From Circinella minor (Eukaryota > Mucoromycota > Mucoromycetes > Mucorales > Lichtheimiaceae), in contig JAEPRB010000611.1 of assembly GCA_016758965.1 (NCBI GenBank), positions 1 through 11,269 of the forward strand: a DNA stretch of 11,269 nt, read 5' to 3'. A program made the position numbers and the translations under genes. The first letter of the stretch is position 1. The number at the start of each line of letters is the position of its first letter. Shown here one piece after another: positions 1 through 8,384 of the stretch. The notes under the pieces are model-generated. The model was not told the DNA's origin and ran no database searches. It saw only the letters and a program-made list of their open reading frames with translations.

Positions 1-97
1 TGTATTGTGACAGACGCATTTACTATCTTAATCGTAATTACAATTAAATAAAAAAACTTTACCATCTTCTTTAACATCTTGTTACTCACTTGATATT

Positions 98-199
98 ATC
101 CGCTATCCGATCCGCATCTGCAGCATCCGCATCCGCATCCGTATCCGCATTTGCGGATGCGGATGCGGATAGCCCTGTTATCCGATCCGATCCGATCCG
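98..199. repeat. Hexanucleotide ATCCGC/GGATGC array with central inversion
   Basis: The stretch is built from imperfect hexamers: ATCCGC or ATCCGA on the left, GGATGC in the middle, then ATCCG again on the right. Around a 2-nt loop (150-151), the 19-nt arms 131-149 and 152-170 are complementary with one mismatch, so the array contains a near-perfect hairpin. It lies just past the 3' end of the minus-strand gag relic and is much more GC-rich than the flanking DNA. A short-period satellite that expanded and then inverted is the simplest reading. No function can be read from it. Confidence 0.8.
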
Positions 200-215
200 T
201 GAAGAACACTACCCT

Positions 216-1196
216 CTACTGATTGTGCACGGGCCGAAAATCCTGCTTGCCATGACGATTTTCTTGATTACACTTTTTACAATTACGATGCATATGACCA
301 CGTTCACCACACTTGAAATATTTTATCCGATTTATACCATCATTCGATCGACTGCCATATGATCCGCCACTGCTCGAGCCACCATAATGACGATTCGCCG
401 GTTTAATTGCATCAAGATCCATAGGAGTGGGACCTTGATTACCAAAGGAAGGAGACAATTGGCTAAACGACTTATTAAAAGGAGAGAAATTTGATAGACG
501 ACGATTATTAACCTTTCCGCACTGTTCCGCCGTTTCATATGCTTCAGCATAAGCATATGCCTCTGATAACGAGAAAGGCTTCTGCATCAGCACTTGTAAT
601 CGGCATTGATATTTCAAACCTTGAACAAAATTAAATAATGCATCCTTAGTGTCCATATCTGGCAACTCTGGCATCAATGAACGAAACTCCCGAACATATT
701 GTTCCACCGACCCTGTTTGTTGAAATTGTTGTAACCACTGTCAAGCTAATTGTTCTGCATTAGCTGGTTTAAATTCATACTTGAATACGCGCTTGAATTC
801 GGACCAAGTACTAGGAGTTGAAGTCGTCATGTCATATTCCACACCACGCCACCACGTCGCTGCACCATTACGCAATAAAGTTACTGCAAACAACACCATT
901 TGATGATCGTCAATATTAACGAATTCCACATATTTTTCCAATGAGTACAACCAGGCTTCGACATGTTGAAACATGCGTTCACCATGAAATGTATCAGGTT
1001 GATGGGGATGAAAGATCTTGGCTAAACTTTATTGATCATCTGTATGTACCACAGGTCTTGTTGGCTGTGTATGTAAATTAGCAATTTGTTCCGCCTATTG
1101 TTGTTGTTGTTGTTGTTGCATTATTTGTTGTAATGATTGAAGCATCGTCATAATTGTTTGTTGTTCCATATTACCAGCTTGTTGTTGATTATCCAT
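216..1196 (-). pseudogene. Ty3/Gypsy-type retrotransposon Gag, three in-frame stops
   Basis: One reading frame of 327 codons runs from ATG at 1196 to TAG at 216-218. It is broken by TAG (1095-1097, codon 34), TAA (1029-1031, codon 56) and TGA (741-743, codon 152), with no frameshift. The N-terminus is Gln-rich, including a run of seven CAA codons just before the first stop. Codons about 75-235 carry a retrotransposon Gag core (Trp pair in AATWWRG, then LPELPDMDTKDALFNFVQGL). A C-terminal CCHC zinc knuckle follows (KCGERGHMHRNC), but its first Cys is Tyr (codon TAT at 318-320), which breaks a metal ligand. Gag packages element RNA into particles; this copy cannot. The matching LTR and primer-binding site lie immediately upstream. 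Downstream pol is absent or outside the window. Confidence 0.88.
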
Positions 1197-1226
1197 TTTG
1201 AATCAATGAATTGATTTTTCTTCTGT

Positions 1227-1234
1227 CGCTACCA
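1227..1234 (-). promoter_or_regulatory. Primer-binding-site-like motif (initiator tRNA-Met type)
   Basis: On the minus strand this reads TGGTAGCG, complementary to the CGCTACCA 3' end of fungal initiator tRNA-Met, the primer known for Ty1 and Ty3. It sits 2 nt inside the presumed LTR end (GACA at 1237-1240 on the minus strand) and 30 nt upstream of the gag ATG, the expected place. The match does not extend clearly past eight bases. Confidence 0.55.
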
Positions 1235-1236
1235 AA

Positions 1237-1793
1237 TGTCAGATCCATTGTAAGTTTATATGACTAATCGCCACACCTTAACATTAACAATAATAACCAG
1301 GATTCTTCGGTAGATGAAACACAATAAACTATGCCACAAGGGAAATGATAATAAAGAAGGTGAGGAAGGCAAAATAAGAAACAAGTAGACTAGTTGATAA
1401 TTAGATAGATAACTTGACAATTAGATAGTTTATTAATTCGTTAATTCGTTAATTGATTTTTATTATTATTATTTTGGAGGGTATTTATATAAAAACAAAA
1501 TAAAAATAATATTTCTAAATATGAATATAAATATGATAATATTATTAAAATAATAATATTATGCAAACAACATGATCGTTGTCTTAATAAGAATAAGAAA
1601 TAATGAAAATCAAAAATAAATAAATTAAAAACAGAATATGGATCAATATTATCCATACGAGACAACACAAAAAAATTAATTAAAGATCATAAAGATGATC
1701 TTTCATAATAACATAAAAGGAAAAGGATATTATAAATGGAAGAGACGACGGAGGTAATAATAATAAATAATATAAATGGAAATAAGGGAGACA
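1237..1793 (-). mobile_element. 5' LTR of the gag relic (outer edge uncertain, 1667-1793)
   Basis: The inner edge is set by the terminal GACA next to the primer-binding site. The minus strand contains a TATA box (TATATAAATACCC, 1479-1491) followed by AT-rich leader, as expected for the U3/R of an LTR. The outer edge is ambiguous. Minus-strand TGTC at 1790-1793 would pair with the terminal GACA and give 557 bp, while TGTGTTGTC ending near 1667 would give about 430 bp. There is no second LTR in the window to settle this. The direct repeat TTAATTCG occurs around 1434-1454. Confidence 0.5.
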
Positions 1794-1845
1794 ATGTATG
1801 AAAGAATATAGGAGGAACAGATGGGTGATGAATAAAAGTAACCAA

Positions 1846-1878
1846 CGGGTAAATACGTTAGGTAGAAGTATTTACCCG
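1846..1878. repeat. 11-bp perfect inverted repeat upstream of tRNA
   Basis: CGGGTAAATAC (1846-1856) and GTATTTACCCG (1868-1878) are exact reverse complements around an 11-nt loop. The GC-richer block that follows (1878-1983) has further short complementary segments (GGTTG/CAACC, GCGGA/TCCGC) and leads into the tRNA. It could be a leftover element terminus or a structured upstream region; no RNA family is recognised. Confidence 0.55.
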
Positions 1879-1983
1879 GCGACAACCTGGATTCCTGGGT
1901 TGGAATCGTTGCTTCGACGTCATACTTAGAGCTGACGCGGACCTGGGAACCAAATCCGCTTCAGACGCGACAAAAAGAGAGCG

Positions 1984-2054
1984 GCGTCGATGGTTTAGTG
2001 GTATAATATCCGCCTGCCACGCGGATGACCCGAGTTCGATTCTCGGTCGACGCA
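1984..2054 (+). tRNA. tRNA-Gly (anticodon GCC)
   Basis: The 71-nt gene folds into a full cloverleaf. The acceptor arms GCGTCGA and TCGACGC are perfectly complementary, followed by discriminator A. The D-loop contains GTTTAGTGGTA (A box TGGTTTAGTGG). The anticodon arm is TCCGC-CTGCCAC-GCGGA, giving anticodon GCC. The T arm is CCGAG-TTCGATT-CTCGG (B box GTTCGATTC). There is no encoded CCA and no intron. A T6 run near 2118 is a possible Pol III terminator. The tRNA lies between a retroelement LTR about 190-320 bp upstream and the DNA transposon 100 bp downstream. Confidence 0.97.
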
Positions 2055-2148
2055 CAGTTTACTTATTTACTGTGAATAGTAACATTTATTAATAAAGCCA
2101 CAATGGATATTATATTAATTTTTTGTCATAGCTAAAAATATTATTCAG

Positions 2149-2154
2149 TTTTAT
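2149..2154. repeat. Target-site duplication TTTTAT, left copy
   Basis: TTTTAT immediately precedes the left terminal inverted repeat and is repeated exactly at 7141-7146, just beyond the right one. A 7-bp version (GTTTTAT) is possible if the last G of the right end belongs to the target. Confidence 0.75.
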
Positions 2155-2177
2155 CGGCCCTAGTAATATACCTGGGG
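2155..2177. repeat. Left terminal inverted repeat of DNA transposon
   Basis: The 23-bp sequence begins CGGCCCTAG and ends TACCTGGGG. The reverse complement of 7118-7140 begins CGGCGGTGT and ends with the same TACCTGGGG. Aligned without gaps they match at 17 of 23 positions (hand count), with the outer four and inner nine bases identical. Confidence 0.75.
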
Positions 2178-2357
2178 GAGATTTACTATTTTTTATTATT
2201 TTTTTTTTTTTGAAAAAAAAAAAAGAAAGAAGAGTAAAAACGAGACTCAACTATTAATCGGAGAAGAATTTCTTTATTATGCTGCTGTATATAATTTGTG
2301 ATGCGCATAATTGAAGTTATGGAAGTATACAAAATAATATATGTATAATGTTCTTGT

Positions 2358-2363
2358 TTTATT
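2358..2363 (-). terminator. Polyadenylation signal AATAAA for the transposon gene
   Basis: AATAAA on the minus strand begins six bases after the TAA stop (2369-2371) and lies within the left subterminal region, so the transcript can end inside the element. It is a short motif in AT-rich DNA. Confidence 0.4.
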
Positions 2364-2368
2364 TGAAT

Positions 2369-5300
2369 TTATCGACGTCTTGCCCTTTTTTTAGGAATAG
2401 TTACATTTACAGAAAACAAGGGTTTTGATGAAATGGGTTGTGATGATGCTGGCTCAATTTTTCTAATACTGGGGCCAGGAGAAACAGCTGCGATTGAGGG
2501 TGATGATGCTGATGGCATAGATGAGGACGAAGGTATAGCTGAGACCCATGAAGCCGATAATGGTGATGGTGGTAATGATGATAATGATCCTAACCTTTGC
2601 ATAGTAGATATGGTAGTGGCAAACGGTGGTGGTGATGGTGTTTGTGCGACTAAAACAGGACGACTTCGCTCTGGTGACTGTAATTCTTCATGCATTACTT
2701 CACATATTCCGTTACTTATAGCAATGCTGGCACCCATCATTCGCTTAATGTTCCAATGTTCGTAATGCATTTTAAGATGTTCAGGAGTCTTATAAAAGAT
2801 GACAACTCCATCTACTGGTTGTGAAATAGACTTATTCCATTGAATTGAAAGATCTACCCATTGATTCGCACTAATACTACCCTTGGCAGGTTCTTTTATA
2901 AATTTACGAAACTTTTCCAATTCTTGTAGAGTGTGTATCGGTGTAACTGCATATTTGGTACCTTGTTTCTGTGCAAGAAATTTATATCGCTTGTTTAATG
3001 GATTGGAGGTTGAACCATCTGGTAAAAATAAATTAATGCTTGTTTTAACAGATAATGGGCGTGCTATTGTTGTTGAATGACGATACTGGTATAGGTCACA
3101 GCTTTTTGGTTGTGGCTGTTGATCAATTCCAAGCTTCTTTGCAACCTTTTCAGAAAACATCCCAATCCCAAAAGTCTCATTAGACGATCTCAAATGTAGA
3201 CCTTGAGAATAGATAATAGATGATTGATCAACAATGGCACCACCACTACAAAAAATACCAAGTTTCATCCGTAAATATAATAGTGCTTCTATCATCCATA
3301 AGTCGTAATGACTTTTATGCGGCTTTTGATAACGGTTCATGCTGCCAACCTGTTCATTATATATTAGTTTCAATATTATATATCTATTAGAAACGTTTAA
3401 TAAATATAAAAATAAAAAATCAAATTGGATTATTTACTTTGATGTTATGGCGAAGTCGATACTCGGCAAGAAAACAATCAGCCATATGTGGGCCAGCTCC
3501 ACTTGAACCAATAGCGCGAATGATATTTTGGTGAACACCACCCTCAAGAGAATTTGTTCCTCTACAGCAGCGATATATTGATAATCCGGCTTTCTTATCG
3601 AAACCAATTTTATAATAAAGAGGTACATCAGGATGATCAGATATTTGCCCTTCGTAAATTGCTTTGATCATGTTATCAGCTTGTTTCTATGCATTCTTGT
3701 CAAATAACGTACGTTCTGTTTTTACACATATAAGATTTCCATATTCATCGAATAATTCTTGAACAACCGGTCCGAGCTCATCGGGTGATGGGACAACTTG
3801 CTTAACCCTACGTAGGATCCATGATGCATTGGTGTTTATAACATAAGCCCAGGTAAGTCCCTTTTTACCAAGATATTCTTCAACTTTCTTTCTATCATCC
3901 TGGTCAACCACAAAAACTGCATCCCGTAATCGCCATGCAAATTCTTTTGCAAGAACATGTTGCCTTGGTATCTTTATCAATGCCATGAAATGGTAAATAT
4001 CTTTTAATACTCTAGGATGCTGAATTTGTTGTTGCTGTGGTATAACTCTTTGTGTTCGTGGTAGTGTTGCTGTTTTTGGTTGACCATATGTATGGTTAAT
4101 TTCTTCATCTTCTGATGACGACGAATTTTCATCCTCAAAAAGATTGTTTTCATCTTCCAAATCTTTAGCTAAAATGGTAGGTGAAAGTGGTGGGGATGCA
4201 TTGTGTGCTCTATCAACTATTGCATTATTGATAGGTGGTATGCTGTTATCTTGTTCTTGACATAGAGACTTTTTTTCAAAACGTAACATCGAAGTAGGTA
4301 AAGAGATTATAAACGGTGGCTGCCCAAAGTCAGAAAGGGTTCTTGAACTAATATCAATTATTGCACCAGGTACAGAAACACGGTTTATACAAACTTGAGT
4401 ACAGCTATCCTGATAATATATTGTCAAAAAAATATTTTCTCGTTAATAGATTATACAAAGAGTAATCAAATACTGACATTCTTATTTATACCTGAATGTT
4501 ATTGTTTGCTGATATAATTTTACCAAATGCGACAGGGTGAAACCATTGACAAGACGGATACACAGAAATGTATGCTCCTTCTGGAACTGGATTTGATACA
4601 GGTTTGCCAATTACCCCAACTTGTTCCAATTTTGTATAAATTGCAAGTGAAGCCCATGCATCCAAAGCCGAATAATATATTTGAGAAGATGATAGATTTA
4701 GTGCTTCCCAATTACTATTTCGATCACCTTTATCCAATGCTCCACCAAGGACTGATTTAGCAATTGTGGATAATGAAGCGGTACCATTGTCAATATAGCC
4801 ACGCCTTCGACAAAATTTTCCAAGTTCCAATACTGTACTTTTGTGGTATATCATATGATAATCACGACTTAGTTTATTCAGATCACCCGTTATATTGCGA
4901 CCAGCTTTTAATACTTTTGGAGATTCTAATATTGTTTTTAATGACAATGGGATATGATCATATTGGTGCACAGGTAAAACTAAAACATCGTTCTACATTA
5001 TAAAACTGTTTATTAATAATCTACGTAAAAATAATGGGAGTAATGTATGTGAATGAGAAATTACCTTGTATGAAATTTGAATGATTGCCACGTTTCGAGG
5101 ACGTGTGCCAATGGCATAATTCCACTCACAGTCAAGCCCTATTACAATTGTTTTAGAAACACTATCATTCACAATTGTTTTTTTTATAATGTCATCGGCA
5201 TTTAATGCACTTCGTATGTAATTAATATTAACATTGTCAGGTATTTTGATAAACGATTCAATTTGTTCTGTTAAAGATTCAGGTTCCAAATTTGCTGCTG

Positions 5301-6924
5301 ATGAAGATGCTTCAGCAATAGAATTATCATTTAAAGACGTGATCATTTGTTGGAGGAAACGTTTGTCTCCTCGTACATTATCGGTGAAAAAAAGACGTGG
5401 TGGCTGGTATCCATATTGTCTATACGTCTTCATCATTTCTTCAAATGGTGTTTTTAAGTGATGTAATGATTTTGTTGGAACCAGCAACTGCAATCGTATT
5501 TCCTCATATTCGTTACATATAGTATATAACGCACCAAACGTCGGTTGATTCCCCATTTTAGCAATTTTTTTAATAAACTTGAAAGTATGATCACCTTTCA
5601 GTATTTCACCACCAACAGCTGTCATTTGTTTGTCCATAAATGGACGAAGTACATCCAAAATAGCAGTATATACAAGTCGAAAATAAGTTACAGATGGAAT
5701 ATAACCCCCATATCCTTGTGCATCATCGAATGTAGAAAATTCATGATATTTGTTTTTGTTATTATTGTTATTCCATGATTCAAAAAGTGTTTGTTGGGTT
5801 TCTTTACGATATAAATGTGCTAATGTGTACTTCATATGCAATATAGTATGTCGTTTTGTATGAAGCTCTTGTAGCATTTCATGGAAGTTGGCGATCCCCA
5901 TTCCATGTTGAATACATGGGCGTAATATATCGATGAGATTGTTTGAAATTGCACAACGGTGTGTCAAAATTGCAGGAAATTCGATAGAAAGCTGATCAGG
6001 TAACTGCTTTAATATTTTTTCGTCACTCGAACCAATTGTTGTTTTACATTTTGGACATATGTACCGATATGAAATGATGTAGAAACATCTAGATATCAGA
6101 TTTTGATTTAATAAAGTATTATTTTATGAAACTGAATTTTATCAATATGTAATATATACAGTGTATAATACCTGTGCATATCAACAACACGACGCGCACA
6201 TGGATCACTGAAAAACCCTTTATAATCAAGTTTAATCTCTTTACAGCCTGGTTCGGAGCAACTGAGTGGTTTATCAATAAGTAAATGTGGCAACCATAAA
6301 AATACTCTTGGGTAATAAAGTGGTGTAGGATTTAATAGATTTTGTTCTCGAAGCGCAAAAAATGGTGCTTTTGGTTCTACCCAAAAAGTACCTTGATGAT
6401 ATTCGCTAGGATAACCATTATCCTTAACTTTTATTCGATTAACAATACTTGAAAAATAATTTGCGAGCACTCCATTATTTCGTTCGTTGTATGACTTTAA
6501 TTCGTTTTCAATACTCTTAATAGTATTAGGAATGACTTCGTCCTCTTCCATTTCTTTTGTCGTTTCCTTATTAATTTCATGTTCTTCGTCATCTTCTTCT
6601 ATTTCCGCTACCAAGTCTTTTAATGAAAAATAACCATCGTTTATGTTATCATGATACTATACAAAGAATGTCATTAGGGAACAAATTATTATGAATTTAA
6701 TATCATACTAAAAATATTGCCAACCTCTTCACTTCGTTTAATCCATTATTTTCTATGTTTTTATTTGGTTTAATGCGTATTTGAGATAAGACTGAAGGGT
6801 TTGTTACAATATCCTTTAAGGTTGTTTGCCCAGCAGGAAGACGTTTACATTTTGGTTTATTTTTACTACCGAACGGTCTACCAAGACCGCGTTTCTCTGG
6901 CAAAGACATGTCGTCGTTATCCAT
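2369..6924 (-). CDS. Transposase-like protein with AT-hook, Zn-binding module and DEDDy 3'-5' exonuclease; one in-frame stop
   Basis: Six exons: 6924-6733, 6656-6172, 6088-5065, 4992-4492, 4409-3438, 3349-2369. The five GT-AG introns (76, 83, 72, 82, 88 nt) join in phase, giving 1,384 codons. Residues 13-25 are an AT-hook (GLGRPFGSKNKP), followed by an acidic stretch. C197, C202, C237 and C240 form a zinc-ribbon-like set. D392 (GDHTFK) and D462 (FTDN) look like the first two acids of an RNase H-fold transposase. Residues about 540-685 are a WRN/Rrp6-type exonuclease: D545-C-E547 (GLDCEW), D604 (NITGDLNKL), Y674/D678 (YSALDAWASLAIY). Transposase-like sequence resumes with D871-IYHF and R-GTNS-LE(1023)-GGVH. 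The tail from about 1285 is Ser/Pro-rich and ends in the nuclear signal PKKRARRR. Codon 975 is TAG (3687-3689) inside an otherwise conserved-looking stretch. Being the only gene between the terminal repeats, it is presumably the transposase. The exonuclease call is firm; the transposase role is inferred. Confidence 0.85.
4993..5064 (-). other. Intron 3 splitting the exonuclease domain
   Basis: This 72-nt GT-AG intron (donor AAG|GTAATT, acceptor AATGTAG) separates exonuclease motif I in exon 3 (GLDCEW, ending QISYK) from motifs II and III in exon 4. Both exons end and begin on codon boundaries, so splicing gives QISYK-NDVLVLPVHQYD. The unspliced frame would stop at 4993-4995, directly at the acceptor. 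Confidence 0.85.
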
Positions 6925-7079
6925 ATTATAACAAGAGGGAAAACCTGTGTTGTATAAAAAAAAATTTCAAACGAAACAAAAAGGAAAATCCCATACGCTA
7001 TTCTCACGCCCATAAACGATCTTAGTACACATAAAAAGTGATAAGCTTAGGTCGCACAAAGGCGTTAAGTCATAATTTC

Positions 7080-7117
7080 ATTGGCTGACATTGTTGCTTA
7101 ACTTATAAAATGATTGG
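7080..7117 (-). promoter_or_regulatory. Possible promoter of the transposon gene in the right subterminal region
   Basis: On the minus strand two CCAAT motifs (7117-7113 and 7084-7080) flank a TATA-like TTTATAAG (about 7109-7102). They lie directly inside the right terminal inverted repeat and 160-190 bp upstream of the ATG at 6924. Such motifs are common in AT-rich DNA, so this is only a candidate. Nothing else was recognised in 6925-7117. Confidence 0.3.
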
Positions 7118-7140
7118 CCCCAGGTACTTTAACACCGCCG
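7118..7140. repeat. Right terminal inverted repeat of DNA transposon
   Basis: On the plus strand it begins CCCCAGGTA and ends ACACCGCCG. It is the inverted partner of 2155-2177 (17 of 23 positions). The following six bases TTTTAT (7141-7146) duplicate the six bases before the left repeat. Confidence 0.75.
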
Positions 7141-7146
7141 TTTTAT
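7141..7146. repeat. Target-site duplication TTTTAT, right copy
   Basis: It is identical to 2149-2154 on the other side of the transposon. Its last base is also the first base of the 4-bp duplication TCTT (7146-7149) of the neighbouring solo LTR, so the two insertions abut. Confidence 0.72.
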
Positions 7147-7149
7147 CTT

Positions 7150-7497
7150 TGTCGTAGCCATAAATAGTAGTGACTCTACTTTTCCTTTTTTATCCATTTG
7201 TAATACTTCTTTTGTAAACGTATTTTATTTTTATATTGCCACGTAGTTAATCCATATCACTGTCACATCATCATAATAATTATTCGGACACGTAGTCAAC
7301 CCTTAGTCACGAACACGTATATTATTATTATTAGTTTATCATATATCTTATTAATAGTTTAGAAAATATATAAATACCCCTTCACATTTCATATAATAAA
7401 AGGGCATCTTTCAAGTTATATTTTATTCTTTTATTATCTTTTGTTCCATTCTATTTCTATTGGCTATGGTACTGATCCGCCAAAAATTAATACGACA
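7150..7497 (+). mobile_element. Solo LTR (348 bp), Ty3/Gypsy-like, with TCTT target duplication
   Basis: It starts TGTCGTAG and ends TACGACA, so the first and last seven bases are perfect inverted complements. It is flanked by TCTT at 7146-7149 and 7498-7501. A TATA box (TATATAAATACC, 7367-7378) lies about two-thirds in, as in an LTR promoter. It aligns along its length with the reverse complement of 7515-7896; shared blocks include GCCACGTAGTT, AGTCACGAACACGTAT, TATTATTATTATTAG and GATCCGCCAAAAAT. No primer-binding site follows and no polypurine tract precedes it, so it is a solo copy left by LTR-LTR recombination. Confidence 0.85.
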
Positions 7498-7514
7498 TCT
7501 TCATATAGTATAAT

Positions 7515-7896
7515 TGTCGTAATATTTTTGGCGGATCAATACCGTAGCTAATAGAAAATAGAATAGAACAAAAGATAATAAAAGAATAAAATAGAAGTTG
7601 AAAGATAATGTTTATTGTTTTAATTATGAACGGATATTTATATGTTTTTCTAACTACTGTGAATAATGATAATTACATGTAAAAGCTAATAATAATAATA
7701 TACGTGGAGTGATTGTGGATTGAATACGTGTTCGTGACTATGGAATGTATACGTGTTCAAATGGATACTATGGTAAGGTGACGGTGATATGGATACAACT
7801 ACGTGGCATCATAAAAATCGAATATCTTTATAAAGAAGTAACATAAAAATAATCCAAAAAGGAAAATGGATGTAACTGTTATTTTTGACTATGACA
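7515..7896 (-). mobile_element. 3' LTR (382 bp) of truncated Ty3/Gypsy element, inverted relative to solo LTR
   Basis: Read on the minus strand it begins TGTCATAG just after the polypurine tract at 7909-7900 and ends TTACGACA at 7515. It contains a TATA motif (CATATAAATATCC, about 7633-7645 on the opposite strand). It is clearly the same family as 7150-7497 but diverged, with several small indels. It lies 17 bp from that LTR in inverted orientation. The body of its element is represented only by the integrase C-terminus upstream. Confidence 0.85.
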
Positions 7897-8384
7897 ATAC
7901 CCCCTCTCCAGATTGTTGGACGTCCTCGTACAATAGCGCAAGATGACCAGTAGATTTTAATTCGGCACGTTCAGCAGCACGAACAGCAGTAGGATCAAAC
8001 CATGAAGCATCAGAAATAATAGAATTGACATGAATAGGACGTAAACGATCAGTGTGGACCCAAGATCGATAAACTTGACCATGTAAATCTTCCAATTGAT
8101 ATATATCAGTATCCAAATTTGTAGCAATCACCTTAAAGGGGCCTTTCCAGTTATATTCGAGACTAAACTTATTTTCATGACGCATAAGCACATGATCTCC
8201 AACAGAAAAAATTTGCGGTTTCAGTTGTGCATCCCATTTGGCTTTATCCTTGGCAGCATTATTTTTTAATTTTTCTTCAGCAATAAGGCGAGCTTCCCGC
8301 AATTTACGTGCTTCAACCACACGACCTTTAGTAATAAGCCAGAGAAAAGGGAATGATCGCATAAATCGCTTGGACCTGATCAAC
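7889..8384 (-). pseudogene. C-terminal fragment of Ty3/Gypsy Pol (integrase C-terminal domain)
   Basis: The open frame continues to 8425, but recognisable homology starts near 8330 (RVVEARKLREARLIAEEKL). It continues through the integrase tail: FSVGDHVLMRHENKFS, then YNWKGPFKVI and YRSWVHTDRLRPIHV, the GPY/F-like module that binds DNA and chromatin targets. The zinc-binding and DDE catalytic domains, RT and RNase H are missing, so the piece is 5'-truncated. The join lies near the first CACTG repeat at 8384. The stop codon TAG (7889-7891) falls inside the first bases of the LTR. The last codons overlap the polypurine tract, a normal compact arrangement for the 3' end of such elements. Confidence 0.85.
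7900..7909 (-). promoter_or_regulatory. Polypurine tract
   Basis: The minus strand reads GGAGAGGGGG, followed by TAT and the LTR start TGTCATAG. Polypurine tracts prime plus-strand DNA synthesis during reverse transcription and sit exactly here, next to the 3' LTR. Confidence 0.75.

Follow-up and report, generated by a model that had tools for sequence, protein, structure and literature searches.

The 11,269-bp stretch of DNA analysed here, referred to below as the window, is contig C596 of the 46.6-Mb, 619-contig assembly of Circinella minor (order Mucorales). It contains a DNA transposon of 4984 bp, at positions 2156-7139, which has imperfect 22-bp terminal inverted repeats (TIRs) and is probably a DDE element of the Dada type. 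The element encloses one gene on the minus strand, running from 6924 to 2369 in six exons with GT-AG introns of 52-88 bases, for 1392 codons including one in-frame TAG. Its features, in window coordinates, are as follows.

2148-2155, no strand: left target-site duplication GTTTTATC, 8 bp, identical to 7140-7147; position 2155 varies between copies.
2156-2177, plus strand: left TIR GGCCCTAGTAATATACCTGGGG, found at 7 places in the genome.
2369-3349, minus strand: exon 6, from the gene model.
3438-4409, minus strand: exon 5, with the DxxH motif (D 3999-4001, H 3990-3992) and the catalytic E (3543-3545).
3687-3689, minus strand: in-frame TAG stop codon in the window copy, from the gene model and copy comparison.
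4492-4992, minus strand: exon 4, most of the DEDDy exonuclease; PF01612, E 3.5e-14.
5065-6088, minus strand: exon 3, second half of the CCCC finger, D1 (5590-5592), D2 (5380-5382) and the exonuclease DxE; PF20499, E 1.7e-11.
6172-6656, minus strand: exon 2, start of DUF6729 with the first two finger cysteines; PF20499, E 1.1e-07.
6709-6924, minus strand: exon 1, basic N-terminus; 3' boundary uncertain (6709 or about 6725).
7118-7139, minus strand: right TIR GGCGGTGTTAAAGTACCTGGGG, found at 12 places in the genome.
7140-7147, no strand: right target-site duplication GTTTTATC, 8 bp, identical to 2148-2155.

Comparison of the copies places each end 1 base inside positions 2155 and 7140, where a first-pass annotation of this DNA had drawn them. 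Since the outermost base differs between copies, the C at 2155 and the G at 7140 belong to the target and not to the element, and the duplication is therefore 8 bp long, not 6 bp as first proposed. TTTTAT is indeed present directly outside both proposed ends, and imperfect inverted repeats do occur there, but without the outermost pair their agreement is 16 of 22 positions instead of 17 of 23. An agreement of 16 was reached by 1 of 200,000 letter shuffles, and the genome counts listed above, made at ≤3 mismatches, fall to 0 for the reversed control of either repeat. Exact 8-bp duplications are found in eight of the 11 related elements whose two ends were read (the window copy, C456, and the chimeric elements C24, C149, C72, C94, C55, and C69 described below), and inexact ones in C93 (7/8), C54 (5/8), and C6 (about 5/8, read by eye). 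The duplications differ from copy to copy, as the check proposed in the first-pass annotation required, although at 8 bp. At 65% AT, a single exact 8-bp match at a given position would arise by chance with a probability of about 3e-5; the eight exact sites are 86% AT, compared with 65% for the window. The second ends of C94, C69, and C55 were located by pattern search, and the regions read for C144, C3, C108, C273, C182, C41, C135, and C292 hold one end only. No matching paired duplication was found for the partial copies on C25, C527, and C45, nor for the interrupted C6 copy.

At least 45 stretches of this genome match the element, window included, and within this genome homology stops at the ends. 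The C456 copy is 98% identical to the window element and aligns over positions 2-4985 of 4986, and the alignments of the C527, C6, and C25 copies start at positions 2, 4, and 7, respectively. C456 carries the duplication AAATATTT on both sides. When its flanks were joined through one copy of these 8 bp, the resulting query matched a repeat family across the junction, with seven matches besides C456 crossing it. Six of these seven loci were read (L081 and five more), and all are uninterrupted: [A/G]A[A/T/G]TATTT occurs once at the insertion point, in one locus as exactly AAATATTT. Empty sites, whose existence was in question, are thus available as paralogues for the C456 copy, but a flank search of the genome returned none for the window copy itself. 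A long terminal repeat (LTR) of the family present left of the window element also lies in the flank of C456, but its orientation with respect to the element is reversed and its distance is different; the ends are therefore not explained by shared flanks. Beyond the LTR, sequence left of the window element had a single tRNA-like match, on C507, besides parts of C215 and C46. On the right, the flank consists of a high-copy inverted-repeat element. This neighbour, of about 750 bp with long imperfect inverted repeats, lies at 7149-7897, directly after the right duplication, and has 95 matching stretches in the genome. The C6 copy is older, about 88-89% identical, and is split by some 5.2 kb of other DNA lying between L012 and L014 (about 93831-99066).

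The encoded protein has a DDE triad, assigned by motif and alignment to D400, D470, and E1031, with a DxxH motif (D879/H882) after the second D. A CCCC finger (C205, C210, C245, and C248, spacing 5-35-3) precedes the triad, and a DEDDy exonuclease (D553, E555, D612, Y682, and D686), starting at the end of exon 3 (about 5150), sits between D470 and D879. For structure models, the relatives P0010 and P0020 were used as stand-ins for the window protein, on account of its introns and length. By prediction only, the core is RNase H-like, with the IS256-family transposase ISCth4 as the nearest fold in the PDB (about 11-13% identity over the matched part), and a WRN-like exonuclease is inserted between D2 and DxxH, again by prediction only. 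A Foldseek match to Hermes has an E of 0.055. Together with the ends and duplications, these motifs support the original description of a DNA transposon whose sole gene joins a transposase to a 3'-5' exonuclease, and the single minus-strand gene fits the six exons drawn for it. At the level of sequence, what we observe is a unit that moved, an 8-bp footprint, and both nuclease active sites present in the window copy. The exonuclease itself is not needed as the catalytic transposase, as D1, D2, and E are retained in the relatives P0010, P0012, and P0023, none of which matches an exonuclease model in Pfam.

Counted exon by exon, the genome contains 50 DUF6729 matches and 34 PF01612 matches, the latter possibly including host genes, and hence many divergent relatives of the transposase. 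P0023, from Apophysomyces sp. BC1021, joins DUF6729 and the D, D, E motifs to SH3 domains, and is possibly a host fusion or a gene-model artefact. In P0031, from the diatom Thalassiosira exigua, DUF6729 is likewise followed by the exonuclease, so that the exonuclease-bearing form extends beyond fungi.

The TAG is also present in the C45 fragment, whereas C456, C25, C6, and C527 have a sense codon at this place. Exon 1 shows a net difference of four bases from C456, which leaves its end uncertain, and is probably frameshifted in the window copy. The window copy keeps all 14 of the scored catalytic or finger positions but has the in-frame stop, while C456 has two changes among these positions, C25 three, C6 one, and C45 one among those it spans; in the C527 fragment, E is the only scored position covered. 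The closest protein, P0001, carries the same two changed residues as C456. Judging from its reading frame, the window copy is now broken, and the description as an autonomous-type element is doubtful for this copy.

As described by Kojima and Jurka (PMC3706591), Dada transposases have a DDE triad, DxxH, an N-terminal CCCC finger and, in all Dada, a C-terminal CCHC finger; the elements insert into RNA genes with 6-7-bp duplications (6 or 7 bp also in PMC8869645), and Dada-U6 and Dada-U1 are without TIRs. In the same description, D2 and DxxH are separated by a DEDDy exonuclease in the Dada of Laccaria bicolor and Ectocarpus, with 3'-end processing as its suggested role. The window element shares with the exonuclease-bearing Dada the DDE triad, DxxH, the place of the exonuclease, and a CCCC finger with the spacing of Dada-U6: the distances are 5, 35, 152, and 70 in the window protein and 5, 35, 135, and 68 in Dada-U6_DR. 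It also shares the multi-exon gene, and its 4984 bp fall within the Dada size of 4666-10979 bp given in PMC3706591.

Several observations weigh against this assignment. The window element has TIRs and an 8-bp duplication, as opposed to Dada-U6 and Dada-U1 without TIRs and Dada duplications of 6-7 bp, and it lies outside RNA genes in an AT-rich target instead of inside them. The C-terminal CCHC finger of Dada was not found in the window protein. No Pfam transposase model, hAT, P, and MULE included, matched any of 25 relatives up to E 0.1, and the family profile, run against PDB sequences, returned exonucleases and one unrelated weak row and no transposase. The predicted local distance difference test score (pLDDT) is only about 51-61 around the catalytic E in the P0010 model, and no copy spanning the catalytic positions has all of them plus an open frame. 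The likeness to Dada is one of published descriptions, motifs, and spacings. Among the listed matches of searches with the proteins of the family, none is named Dada, and the alignment-based search named no animal Dada.

These differences could instead indicate a separate superfamily, one that arrived at the same layout of finger, DDE, and exonuclease from a different C/DxxH-type ancestor and had TIRs and an 8-bp stagger all along. The 8-bp duplications, TIRs, AT-rich targets, and absent C-terminal finger are closer to the habits of hAT, P, or MuDR/IS256 than to described Dada, and the best predicted fold match is an IS256-family enzyme. On the other hand, the CCCC spacing of 5-35-3 is identical to that of Dada-U6_DR, the D1-D2 distance is similar, the exonuclease is set at the unusual position that it has in the Dada of Laccaria and Ectocarpus, and a C-terminal cysteine cluster is present in 6 of 36 relatives. 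We therefore consider a separate superfamily unlikely. Because motif order, spacing, and exonuclease place match the published Dada transposases (PMC3706591), the element does not appear to be a wholly new superfamily, which the first-pass annotation had considered possible; because it has TIRs and 8-bp duplications, lies in AT-rich targets outside RNA genes, and lacks the C-terminal CCHC finger, it is, on its sequence features, a Dada-type variant and not a strict Dada member.

Eight other loci (C24, C93, C149, C72, C94, C55, C69, and C54; read as L019-L026, L057, L058, L061-L065, and L089-L092) share the right ~300 bp of the element, comprising TIR, leader, and first codons, beyond which all eight have a body in common that contains a different gene. 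At the opposite end they carry GGCGCTTATATAATTCCTGGGG or a close variant, shortened in C24. As to the short non-autonomous copies sharing the TIRs, for which the first-pass annotation proposed a search, internally different elements sharing one end do exist, but they are 3.9-8.6 kb long and carry this other gene. Exact 8-bp duplications flank six of the eight (C24, C149, C72, C94, C55, and C69), and GAAATT adjoins the right end in six of the eight insertions, which amounts to a mild target preference.

One chimera product, P0037, contains GATDYG and, further on, SSQTC-C4-RD, resembling the published TnpB/Fanzor motif, D-X(125,275)-[TS][TS]XX-[C4]-X(5,50)-RD (PMC3627910). P0037 fits one rendering of this motif (0 of 2000 shuffles fit), but its likely RuvC-I D, in GATDYG, is 316 residues away, outside the range of 125-275, and P0038 does not fit the rendering. 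A TNB model match in one C93 piece is below the cut-off (E 0.23), and P0037 has no match above the cut-off in Pfam, NCBIfam, and PDB searches. We take the resemblance to TnpB/Fanzor as a lead, not a classification. The chimeras are like the Fanzor1-bearing Mucorales elements in having TIRs and a [TS][TS]xx-C4-RD protein without a recognised transposase of their own (PMC3627910). Those elements were placed in MuDR, Mariner, Sola, IS4, or Helitron or remained unclassified, and the word Dada is absent from PMC3627910.

Eight elements with quite a different gene share this right end, so that cargo is exchangeable, and the exonuclease protein might itself be a hitch-hiker on ends owned and moved by another transposase. 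We find this improbable, as the chimera gene has no recognised transposase domain, whereas the exonuclease protein has DDE, DxxH, and a predicted transposase fold, and a reading-frame check revealed no other long coding gene on the full-length copies.

A tRNA-Gly gene is located at 1984-2055, about 93 bp from the element, which is inserted outside it. The LTR on this side, from 1250 to about 1976, ends a few bases before the tRNA-Gly and belongs to a family with at least 45 genome matches, gypsy-like as judged by a gag-like reading frame. In four of the six LTR loci scanned (L066-L071), window included, the LTR end and a tRNA gene (Gly, Asn, Asn, or Thr) are about 6-10 bp apart, a pattern suggesting that the LTR family is a tRNA-targeting retrotransposon, comparable to yeast Ty3. 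The tRNA is near the element because the neighbouring LTR adjoins tRNA genes; Dada-style targeting of this tRNA-Gly by the element is very improbable, since, of 32 loci scanned with ARAGORN, only that of the window itself yielded a tRNA, and of 20 sources compared with Rfam, only the window had a match.

For the Dada-type transposon, we propose that the N-terminal part of the protein (basic stretch, CCCC finger, and DUF6729) would bind the ends, and that the DDE core would cut them and join them to an AT-rich target across an 8-bp stagger, gap repair of which would produce the duplication. A probable role of the exonuclease is the trimming of 3' DNA ends that arise in the course of transposition, by analogy with the proposal of Kojima and Jurka for the Laccaria and Ectocarpus Dada (PMC3706591). 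The chimeras on the same right end would probably be mobilised in trans by the exonuclease-bearing protein. Eukaryotic C/DxxH enzymes excise by cut-and-paste. Excision by this route is tentatively favoured here over the copy-out/paste-in of ISCth4.

More tentatively, the element could belong to a branch of superfamily rank, made up of DDE transposons with an exonuclease and sister to the RNA-gene-targeting Dada; this branch would have TIRs and an 8-bp stagger, would not target RNA genes, and would mobilise in trans TnpB/Fanzor-carrying elements built on its own right end. If so, this would be a partnership of a transposase with an RNA-guided nuclease that is not described in the consulted parts of the Dada and Fanzor papers (PMC3706591, PMC3627910). 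Dada is known mainly for insertion inside tRNA and small nuclear RNA genes, and an element of closely related architecture that has TIRs, duplicates 8 bp, and uses dispersed AT-rich targets offers a natural comparison for the gain or loss of targeting and for the role of an exonuclease set into the catalytic domain. The chimeras show that one end and its leader can be traded onto TnpB/Fanzor-like cargo. Database proteins labelled only as DUF6729 or as 3'-5' exonuclease domain-containing also acquire a likely meaning.

Searches of Mucor-related literature, judged from their listings, gave no publication on such an element, and DUF6729 is not mentioned in the literature searched. Among known systems outside Dada, the element resembles MuDR/IS256 in its C/DxxH DDE core and in a duplication of the 8-9-bp class. 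ISCth4 itself differs in being bacterial, in lacking the exonuclease, and in moving by copy-out/paste-in (PMC7780238). KolobokD also carries an exonuclease on a C/DxxH-type DDE transposon, but its exonuclease is of the DEDDh type and its duplications are TTAA (PMC9587614).

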